DNA from: Candidatus Limnocylindrales bacterium
GTDB taxonomy: Bacteria; Moduliflexota; Moduliflexia; Moduliflexales; JAUQPW01
DNA length: 64,000 bases
Assembly: GCA_035559535.1 (NCBI GenBank)
Contig: DATMBG010000017.1
Span: 62,001-126,000 of the forward strand
Reading direction: 5' to 3'
The notes under the pieces were generated by a model. That model was not told where the DNA came from, ran no database searches, and worked only from the letters and a program-made list of their open reading frames with translations. This document shows, in pieces, positions 40,169 to 43,304 of the stretch (positions are counted from its first letter, which is position 1; every line of letters begins with the position of its first letter). The translations under genes and the position numbers were made by a program.

Positions 40169-40387
40169 TTAGCAGATCCGGCATCTCCATGCCTTGAAGG
40201 TTTCTGGATTCCTCTTTTCGGTCCTCTTTCGCCCTTCTTTCCGAATCTGTAAGAGGGTATATCCATCCGATAGCAGGGCCGTAGAATCTTCTATGTTGAC
40301 CGGATTGAAACCCATTTGGGTTATATAAAAGTTTATCCAATAATTTAAATCCTTCACGTAAAGTTCCACACGATGATTATTAGCCAT
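40169..40387 (-). pseudogene. truncated VOC/glyoxalase-fold fragment
   Basis: From the ATG at 40387 about 72 residues are readable. The first 45 (HRVELYVKDLNYWINFYITQ, then MGFNPVNIEDSTALLSDGYT) match the opening beta-alpha-beta module of the vicinal oxygen chelate superfamily. A VOC domain needs about 120 residues and the second module is missing. The tail (KEGRKRTEKRNPETFKAW) does not fit. It could be a broken gene, or a half-domain that dimerises. A longer start at 40408 is also open. Confidence 0.5.
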
Positions 40388-40565
40388 AGGTTGTTTATTC
40401 AAACCCATCCTGGGTCTTCTTCTGACGATATTGGTTTAAGAGAAGCAGAAAACATCCACTTACCAATTGGTAAGGGTTAAATAACGTTTCTTCTGAGAAT
40501 ATCCTCAGGGCTTTCTTAAGGGCTGAGTTTTTGCCTATAAGAACTCCATCCCTCATGGGGTTCAA

Positions 40566-40817
40566 TTATTTAGAGCCCTCTGGGACGGTTGTAATTGCCT
40601 TCGGAACCGGCAGTTCTTTTCCTGTAACTGCCTCTGGAGAAATCTTAGGTTTAGATTTCAAGAAGCTTTCCATTTCCCGCTGAACATATTTACCCGTCAC
40701 CAACCCAGAGTCCGCCACACTGTTCTGCCTAAAAGCTGGAGCCCGGATCAAAATCATACTTCCAACTATAGCCATGGCAATTAGACAAATATTTATCAAA
40801 ATATCTTTCATTTTCAT
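40566..40817 (-). CDS. small exported or anchored protein with one SFLKxKP motif
   Basis: 83 residues. An N-terminal hydrophobic segment (ILINICLIAMAIVGSMILI) is a signal peptide or anchor. The rest is short and Lys/Pro/Val-rich and contains VQREMESFLKSKPKISPE and KELPVPKAITTVP. These align with the second repeat of the protein encoded just upstream (VPEMGSFLKPKPVTPPE, KEFSLPQVIYQVP). The two are therefore paralogous. A GGAGAAA ribosome site lies about five bases before the start. It lies 153 bp downstream of the longer paralogue and is probably in the same sigma-54-driven unit. I recognise no known family. Confidence 0.7.
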   Translation of the reverse strand: MKMKDILINICLIAMAIVGSMILIRAPAFRQNSVADSGLVTGKYVQREMESFLKSKPKISPEAVTGKELPVPKAITTVPEGSK

Positions 40818-40970: not shown

Positions 40971-41417
40971 TTAACGGGTATTCAGCCAGGGCCATTTATC
41001 TGCCCCATCCTGAAAGTAAGTTGGACCCTTGGGGTTGTTTGGAACCTGATAGATCACTTGAGGCAGAGAAAATTCTTTGGTCTCTATGGTTTCGGGTGGA
41101 GTGACGGGTTTAGGTTTCAAGAAGCTTCCCATTTCCGGAACCTGTTCGCCTCCCTTTTCGCCTATTCCCAAGAACCGATCCCCTGTCATATTGGGATTTT
41201 CTCCCCTGGGGGATTGATAGATTGTACTCGGAGAAGGGGAAGGAGTTGTCGGCTTTGGTTTCAGGAAGCTTCCAAATTCCGTTACCACCTGTCCTCCCTT
41301 CTCCCCGACTCCCATAAACCGATCATCCTGTCCAAAAGCTAGGGAAGTGGTCAGGGTAATACCCACGGCCAGGAGGATTATCAGGATACTCTTTTGAAAT
41401 AAGAGATGTGTTTTCAT
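40971..41417 (-). CDS. exported protein with two 28-residue SFLKPKP repeats
   Basis: 148 residues from the ATG at 41417, which has AAGGAG at a good distance; a longer frame to 41450 lacks support. A signal peptide (QKSILIILLAVGITLTTSLAFG) is followed by repeat 1 (DRFMGVGEKGGQVVTEFGSF, then LKPKPTTP) and repeat 2 (DRFLGIGEKGGEQVPEMGSF, then LKPKPVTP). Each is followed by a Pro/Ser/Thr linker ending (T/V)IYQ(S/V)P. The C-terminus is KGPTYFQDGADKWPWLNTR. There are no cysteines and no lipobox. It has no family that I recognise. A consensus sigma-54 promoter lies about 115 bp upstream and its likely activator gene just beyond. Confidence 0.8.
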   Translation of the reverse strand: MKTHLLFQKSILIILLAVGITLTTSLAFGQDDRFMGVGEKGGQVVTEFGSFLKPKPTTPSPSPSTIYQSPRGENPNMTGDRFLGIGEKGGEQVPEMGSFLKPKPVTPPETIETKEFSLPQVIYQVPNNPKGPTYFQDGADKWPWLNTR

Positions 41418-41447
41418 GATGATCTCCTTTTGAAGAAGTAAAAGAAG

Positions 41448-41490
41448 CAAGTTTTTTTAAGACGACCCGGCGTTCTCCGGGTTTACTTGC
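41448..41490 (-). promoter_or_regulatory. structured 5' leader of the SFLKPKP operon
   Basis: Nested stems: outer GCAAGT/ACTTGC (41448-41453 with 41485-41490) and inner ACCCGG/CCGGGT (41465-41470 with 41477-41482), between the sigma-54 promoter and the ribosome site. No T-run follows on the transcribed strand, so it is not a terminator of that transcript. Confidence 0.5.
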
Positions 41491-41530
41491 CTCGGTTATA
41501 GATGCTATCGATTTGCTTACTTTTAATAAG

Positions 41531-41546
41531 AGCAATCCCCGTGCCA
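41531..41546 (-). promoter_or_regulatory. consensus sigma-54 (-24/-12) promoter
   Basis: Read on the minus strand, TGGCACGGGGATTGCT: GG at 41545-41544 and GC at 41533-41532, twelve bases apart start to start, matching TGGCACG-N4-TTGCW at every fixed base. Expected transcription start about 41520, giving a leader of about 100 bases to the ATG at 41417. Confidence 0.9.
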
Positions 41547-41620
41547 GGGCTGCAAAAAATCATCCTTTATAAGTATCTGTTTTTTAAAAGCTTATAAGAT
41601 CCCTGGAAAAATCCTTTTTC

Positions 41621-41645
41621 TTTTGTCTCTCTTTTAGAGACAAAA
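41621..41645. promoter_or_regulatory. perfect 10-bp palindrome, probable upstream activator site 1
   Basis: TTTTGTCTCT-CTTTT-AGAGACAAAA, centred about 113 bp upstream of the expected sigma-54 start site, the usual location for enhancer-binding activator sites. Confidence 0.7.
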
Positions 41646-41711
41646 ATTCAAAAGATTCTTTTAAGTATTTAAATTAAGCGAGCTTAAATAAGTAAAATTT
41701 TTTTACCATTA

Positions 41712-41728
41712 GTCTCTTTCTTAAAGAC
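41712..41728. promoter_or_regulatory. related palindrome, probable upstream activator site 2
   Basis: GTCTCT-TTCTT-AAAGAC repeats the core of site 1 (GTCTCT-N5-AGAGAC) with one half-site change. Its centre is 87 bp from that of site 1 and about 200 bp from the start site. Confidence 0.55.
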
Positions 41729-41783
41729 AGCGAAGAGAAAGGAAACAAGGGCGGGGAGAATCGAAAAAGGTATAAAATAAGGT

Positions 41784-43304
41784 TTACTTGAATTGATTTA
41801 AATCCAGCCCATTCCTCGAAAGGAGCTTATAAAGGAAGGTTCGGTTAACCCCGGCCTTTTGGGAGGCTTCCGCGATATTCCCCCGGGTTGATTGCAACAG
41901 GCGCCGCAAAAAGCTTTTTTCAATATCCCTCACAGCCAGTTGTCTGGCAGCTTCTTTGACCTCTTTGAGTTCTCTGTAGTTCTCTGGAATGGCCGGGTAG
42001 GGTCGCTTCAAAAAGCGCTGAGGTTGTTGAAGTTCCGGAGGAAGATCTTTTAACTTGATGGTTTCTCCTTTGGCTAAAACGATGGCCCTTTTAATAATGT
42101 TTTCCAATTCTCGAATATTCCCGGGATAATCGTATTCCAACAAGCGCTCTTGAGCGGCAGGTTCTATCTCCTGAATCCGTCTGCGAAACTCCTTATTAAA
42201 TTTCTTCATGAAGAAATTAATCAGTAACGGAATATCTCCTCGCCGCCCTCGCAAAGGAGGAAGTTCCAGTGTAACCACATTAAGTCGGTAATAAAGGTCC
42301 TCACGGAAGGTCCCTTCCGCAATCATCCGTTTCAAATCTTTATGGGTTGCGGCTACAACACGCACATCGACGGTCAACAATTGGTTACTTCCTACCCTTT
42401 GGATTTCTCCAAATTGGAGGGCCCGAAGGAGCTTGGTCTGAAGGTTCAGGCTCATATCCCCGATTTCATCCAGGAACAGTGTTCCATGGTTAGCCGCCTC
42501 GAACTTTCCGATTCGGGTATAGGTAGCTCCTGTGAAGGATCCCCGTTCATGTCCAAAAAGCTCAGACTCCAGTAAGCTTTCAGGGATGGCCCCACAATTG
42601 ACCGTAATAAAAGGATACTCGGATCGGGAACTACTATAATGAATGGCCCGGGCTATAAGCTCTTTTCCGGTTCCACTTTCTCCATAAACAATAACCGGAA
42701 CAGATGTTGGGGCAACCTGTTCGACCAGGTTCAGGATATTAACCAGCTTTTCATCGGTTCCTACGATACTGTTAAAAATCGAGCTTTCTTTAAGCTGCTG
42801 CCTGAGATAAATATTCTCTTCCGCCAATCGTTCTTTAATAGCCTTTATCTGATTGTAGACCTTTAAAAGTTCCAGGTGCTGCCGCTCAAAAATCTCTACG
42901 TTTCGGCGCAGTCGAAGACTTAAAAGCTTGAATATAGCCAGCATCAAAGGCGGATCATGGGCCAGAATTTCGTGGAAAGTATCGCAGGGTATTTGGAGAA
43001 GGAGGGTATCTTCCAGAGTTTGGGCCGATGCAGACCGCAATCCTCTATCCACAACGGCAATTTCACCGAGTACATCTCCACGCTCCCCAATCATCAACTC
43101 GGCATCGTGATGGTAAACCCGAACTTTACCTCGAAAAATCACATAGACGGCATCCCCGGGACTATTCTCCTCAAATACGGAGGTCTGCTCAGGAATAAAA
43201 ACTTCCTTAGCGGCCAGGGCCAATCGGAGAGACTCTTCTTCTTTTAAAGCGGTAAAGAGATCAATACCCTGTAAAAATTCTTTTTTCTCTTGAAGAGATA
43301 ACAT
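41784..43304 (-). CDS. sigma-54 enhancer-binding activator with N-terminal cyclic-nucleotide-binding domain
   Basis: 506 residues. Residues 1-130 are a CRP-type cNMP-binding domain with the phosphate-binding pattern GEIAVVDRGLRSASA (Glu81, Arg90, Ser91), so ligand binding is plausible. A coiled coil (135-175) leads to the AAA+ domain: Walker A GESGTGKE 208-215, sigma-54 contact loop GSFTGA 255-260 (usual form GAFTGA) and Walker B GTLFLDEIG 274-282. The C-terminus has a Fis-type helix-turn-helix (NIAEASQKAGVNRTFLYKLL, about 476-495). The common sensor for this class is a receiver, PAS or GAF domain, so a cNMP domain is unusual. Its own 3' flank carries the sigma-54 promoter and palindromes, so it probably activates the small exported genes downstream. 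Confidence 0.93.
   Translation of the reverse strand: MLSLQEKKEFLQGIDLFTALKEEESLRLALAAKEVFIPEQTSVFEENSPGDAVYVIFRGKVRVYHHDAELMIGERGDVLGEIAVVDRGLRSASAQTLEDTLLLQIPCDTFHEILAHDPPLMLAIFKLLSLRLRRNVEIFERQHLELLKVYNQIKAIKERLAEENIYLRQQLKESSIFNSIVGTDEKLVNILNLVEQVAPTSVPVIVYGESGTGKELIARAIHYSSSRSEYPFITVNCGAIPESLLESELFGHERGSFTGATYTRIGKFEAANHGTLFLDEIGDMSLNLQTKLLRALQFGEIQRVGSNQLLTVDVRVVAATHKDLKRMIAEGTFREDLYYRLNVVTLELPPLRGRRGDIPLLINFFMKKFNKEFRRRIQEIEPAAQERLLEYDYPGNIRELENIIKRAIVLAKGETIKLKDLPPELQQPQRFLKRPYPAIPENYRELKEVKEAARQLAVRDIEKSFLRRLLQSTRGNIAEASQKAGVNRTFLYKLLSRNGLDLNQFK

Follow-up and report, generated by a model that had tools for sequence, protein, structure and literature searches.

The operator of the sigma-54 activator GlrR/QseF is TGTC-N10-GACA (PMC8745638; PMC4987338). 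In the PrsK/PrsR system of PEP-CTERM proteins, which also has a sigma-54 activator, a 17-nt upstream motif and a -24/-12 site precede single exported-protein genes (PMC1569441). The locus described here lies in a window of 64 kb (the whole stretch of DNA analysed) from an uncultured bacterium and brings together a GlrR-type sigma-54 activator, paired operators, a -24/-12 promoter and exported-protein genes, which we consider likely to form one circuit.

The minus strand at 41531-41546 carries TGGCACGGGGATTGCT, which is the window's only exact match to TGGCACGNNNNTTGCW (none in 100 shuffles), and the genome has one rpoN. Taking the C of GC as -12 places the predicted +1 at about 41520. Two palindromes, the predicted operators, lie upstream. 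The proximal one (41624-41642) is perfect, reads TGTCTCTAAAAGAGAGACA on the minus strand and is centred near -113, and the distal one (41711-41729) reads TGTCTTTAAGAAAGAGACT on the minus strand and is centred near -200. Their cores span 41625-41641 with no mismatch and 41712-41728 with one mismatch. Exactly two sites in the 64 kb match TGTCTCT-N5-AGAGACA at 12 or more of 14 positions, and both are these palindromes; ten Markov resamplings of the window held 0-2 such sites each, and when the local 250 bp were resampled 2000 times, two sites never occurred together. The -24/-12 site and both palindromes stand far above chance. An earlier note, which drew on this locus alone and missed the GlrR operator class, had reported a sigma-54 consensus on the minus strand, palindrome centres at -113 and -200 of the predicted start and 87 bp apart, an activator gene ending about 55 bp past the distal palindrome and small exported repeat genes downstream. 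The consensus match was borne out, recomputation of the centres gave the same values, 55 bp separate the distal palindrome from the end of the activator's stop codon (41784), and the downstream genes encode, in this order, a protein of 148 aa with two repeats and one of 83 aa with a single related copy.

Comparisons within the genus rest on two genomes, the window's own (G000, 5.6 Mb) and that of a congener (G001). The same locus in G001 has an activator that is 96% identical, both palindromes, 86 bp apart, the promoter TGGCATGGGAGTTGCT and both exported genes. The earlier note had held that parts missing from an orthologous locus would speak against it, and this comparison found every part in place. 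The GG-N10-GC of sigma-54 promoters in its TGGCAC/TTGC context is present in both species, and an intergenic alignment shows a conserved block running from about the distal palindrome through the promoter into the leader. The predicted 5' leader (41418-41520, minus strand) contains a conserved stem at 41444-41493, in which GAGGCAAGU...ACUUGCUUC enclose a nested GC-rich hairpin; the same fold is found in both species, with folding z of -2.3 and -2.4. That the leader holds a riboswitch or another known RNA was considered and rejected, Rfam giving no match up to E = 1. Operator pairs were found at four loci, all in G000 and G001 (reversed-pattern control 0-1 per genome), and the pair pattern had no match in the 38 further genomes searched. 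Two of these 38 belong to the same order and have no orthologue of the full activator either, and a contig search with the activator sequence returned AAA+/HTH relatives only and no orthologue with the cyclic-nucleotide-binding (cNMP) domain. One candidate relative (L074) was rejected, having no similarity to the cNMP domain. Single palindromes in a further genome (G002) have no near-consensus -24/-12 site within the stretches examined.

The first predicted target gene (40971-41417, minus strand) encodes an exported 148-aa protein with a signal-peptide-like N-terminus, two DRF(M/L)G(V/I)GEKGG...GSFLKPKP repeats and the C-terminus KWPWLNTR. The probable second target (40566-40817, minus strand) encodes 83 aa, with a hydrophobic segment near the N-terminus and a single related repeat. 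Neither protein matches Pfam or NCBIfam, a search of the two same-order genomes for the 83-aa protein gave nothing convincing, and any function assigned to the pair is presumptive. The C-terminus G.T.F...A.KWPWLN is common to the 148-aa protein and an otherwise different exported family of about 117/118 aa (L120 4635-4991, L180 4594-5971, L210-L217), which follows the pattern TGHIYC..PTA.GV.LEPGVCPGGDHPH...KWPWL and has no Pfam match. Matches to this family number 7 in G000 and 9 in G001, with none in six other genomes searched. The family was tried as an independent probe of the regulon; only the member at contigs C51/C180 has operator and promoter. On contig C167 of G001 (L180 6277-6387), three TGTCTC-type palindromes lie upstream of three tandem 117-aa family genes; no near-consensus -24/-12 site is found there, and the G000 counterpart is without the palindromes. 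Half-length VOC/glyoxalase-like proteins of 79 and 70 aa, clearly related, are encoded in the window (40169-40408) and in L118 (6204-6416), and their genes adjoin two of the four operator loci.

A search of G000 for GTCTCT-N5-AGAGAC with at most one mismatch gave a pair on contig C29 (87 bp apart) and a site on C51, and a wider pattern gave the C4 locus. Only paired or promoter-linked palindromes were counted as sites; single palindromes in coding DNA (C3, C37 and others) were rejected as chance, the reversed control being equally frequent at one mismatch or fewer. At C51 and, in G001, C180, operator centres lie at about -111/-202 and about -112/-203 of TGGCATTAGACTTGCT and TGGCATTAGATTTGCC, and the promoter precedes a gene of the 118-aa exported family. 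The intervening DNA at C51/C180 is unrelated to that of the window, and the matching geometry therefore does not come from recent duplication. At C29 and, in G001, C1, the two operators are separated by 87-89 bp and precede a conserved TGGTATAAGGCTTGCT by about 230-340 bp; a second sigma-54 activator comes next and, in G000, tail sheath and tube genes. At C4/C58 the operators are upstream of TGGCATGGTTATTGCT (in G001 TGGTATGGTTATTGCA), with the first gene 730 bp away; the genes encode an FHA-GAF-AAA+ activator, a sugar transferase and a Wzz-like protein. The C29 and C4 operators are more distant (about -230 to -455), and these loci have a weaker promoter or an uncertain first gene. The operator form in the genus is TGTCTCT-N4/5-AGAGACA, with an inner spacing that is mostly 11 bases, as in the window, and 10 at C51, C180, C4 and C58, where TGTC-N10-GACA is exact. 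Near-identical sites are found at enterobacterial GlrR loci (TGTCTCTAATTGGAGACA in L081, TGTCTCAAATCGGAGACA in L068), and the window palindrome is, as judged by its sequence, of the published GlrR/QseF operator class.

Two side observations concern these loci. At C29 (L118 233-5585) the sheath and tube genes follow a conserved -24/-12 site and an activator whose N-terminus resembles a degenerate receiver, possibly as a sigma-54-controlled injection or tailocin-like cluster. At C4 (L176 6110-6384, minus strand) a strong hairpin and T run (GCAGAAGG...CCTTCTGCTTTTTTTT) lie about 250 bp downstream of a -24/-12 site; the stretch between them has no convincing ORF and could possibly be a sigma-54-driven small RNA.

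The activator gene of the window (41784-43304, minus strand) encodes 506 aa with a cNMP-binding domain (PF00027, 4e-14), an AAA+ domain (PF00158, 5e-72) and a Fis-type HTH (PF02954, 1e-4). The AAA+ motifs GESGTGKE, GSFTGA and FLDEIGD supply the Walker motifs and GAFTGA-type loop of a sigma-54 enhancer-binding protein. It is not a GlrR orthologue, because the full-length protein reaches 302 bits against GlrR (NF011695), whose cut-off is 763, and has the cNMP domain in place of the N-terminal receiver. The HTH (41826-41933, minus strand) is closest to GlrR. Its recognition helix is NRTFLYKLLSR, against NRTEFYKLLSR in GlrR proteins, and the last 75 residues score 42.4 bits for GlrR (3.7e-11), the next NCBIfam family scoring 24.7 bits. 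Among the aligned proteins of the genome the NRTxxYKLL helix is found in the window activator only, and otherwise in GlrR proteins. This supports, but does not prove, binding of the palindromes by the adjacent activator.

With dozens of sigma-54 activators in the genome, the sites could be real operators bound by another GlrR-like activator, that of C29 or an unexamined one, while the cNMP activator acts elsewhere. The HTH of the C29 protein matches GlrR only, at 32 bits (the others among ten further activators of the genome score at most 29), and its gene lies behind the conserved operator pair, one of the four loci. The window activator nevertheless scores higher for GlrR and has the GlrR helix residues, where the C29 protein has RRTFQRLL. 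In both species it is the window activator that has the perfect operator, in standard geometry, directly beside it, and the C29 gene resembles a target more than a source, so that binding by another activator appears unlikely. Much less probable still is that the palindromes serve a different kind of DNA-binding protein, such as a repressor, and lie near the -24/-12 site by coincidence: palindromes without a good -24/-12 site do occur at C32 (L119) and at C167 of G001, but in both species the centres hold nearly identical positions at two -24/-12 promoters that are unrelated to each other, and the palindrome sequence fits a sigma-54 activator operator class. That the palindromes are terminators of the activator gene, as their place just behind its stop codon and their capacity to form stems might suggest, can practically be dismissed, since on the minus strand no T run follows either stem, a terminator scan omits both, and the same palindromes also precede other promoters (at C51 they stand between divergent genes).

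The cNMP-binding domain of the window activator (Pfam; 42957-43199, minus strand) has an intact phosphate-binding cassette, GEIAVVDRGLRSA, with its Gly, Glu and Arg; the Glu and Arg are those of cyclic-nucleotide receptors, and the cassette aligns with GERALLYDEPRSA of cGMP-dependent kinases in PDB. A search of the genome gave 15 matches to the class III cyclase domain (14 exceeding the family cut-off), which makes binding of cAMP or cGMP by the activator plausible. As the cyclic-nucleotide domain replaces the receiver of GlrR, cAMP or cGMP is the likely trigger.

The preferred reading, in which the window activator acts at its own neighbouring promoter, would run as follows. The GlrR-type HTH of the 41784-43304 protein would bind the TGTCTCT-N5-AGAGACA palindromes near -113 and -200, and DNA looping would carry its AAA+ ring to the sigma-54 polymerase at -24/-12. 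Transcription would thereby be opened for the exported protein of 40971-41417 and probably that of 40566-40817, with cAMP or cGMP at the cyclic-nucleotide domain as the presumed trigger. Control by this activator would extend to at least one other promoter, in front of the gene for the 118-aa exported protein (whose C-terminus is also KWPWL), and probably to the two remaining loci, that of the second activator and contractile-tail genes and that of the FHA-domain activator and exopolysaccharide genes. The protein would be a GlrR-type activator that answers to a cyclic nucleotide and serves a small surface or export regulon confined to the genus. The earlier proposal that activator, palindromes and promoter form one circuit thus gains support from the congener locus, the C51/C180 geometry and the GlrR-type HTH. 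A more tentative suggestion, to which we give somewhat less than even weight, is that a cyclic nucleotide directly gates the sigma-54 activator, a GlrR-type module joined to a cAMP/cGMP receptor, which would drive a group of small exported proteins specific to the genus (two with the KWPWL tail) and, in a cascade, two further sigma-54 activators. The parts are of known types and their combination appears new; full-text searches of one literature collection found no paper describing a cyclic-nucleotide-gated sigma-54 activator. Sequence alone was enough, in a poorly sampled bacterial lineage, to assign an activator its operator, DNA-binding class and target set, and the locus shows that the GlrR DNA-binding module can be uncoupled from two-component systems. 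Should a cyclic nucleotide prove to be the ligand, sigma-54 transcription would be under direct second-messenger control and not gated via CRP.

Among known systems, PrsR/PEP-CTERM was considered and rejected as the source of the operator: the PrsR motif ends in TTTACA and the window operator in GACA, the window activator scores 354.8 bits against PrsR (cut-off 502.6), and the genome's own PrsR-like protein is a separate one, at C36. The sensor domain and its phosphate-binding cassette are common to the window activator, Crp/Fnr-type proteins and cyclic-nucleotide kinases, whereas the output is a sigma-54 AAA+ domain in the window activator and a winged helix (Crp/Fnr-type) or a kinase in the others. 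A Desulfobulbaceae locus (L064) has the same order of gene and sites as the window, with a GlrR-type gene, then TGTCTCTTATGAGAGACA, a second site, TGGCACAAGAAATGCT (-24/-12) and a small exported protein, and its TGTC palindromes are 67 bp apart. The activators of L064 and of Desulfocapsa (L061) differ from that of the window in having a receiver domain and unrelated target proteins, and in Desulfocapsa palindromes were not found beside the promoter. With GlrR/QseF (NF011695; glmY/glmZ operators) the window activator shares HTH type and recognition helix, and its locus shares multiple TGTC-type operators upstream of a -24/-12 promoter. Unlike GlrR/QseF, it has a cNMP domain for the receiver, operators with an inner spacing of mostly 11 and no histidine-kinase or lipoprotein genes beside it, and its predicted targets are exported proteins whereas those of GlrR/QseF are small RNAs.
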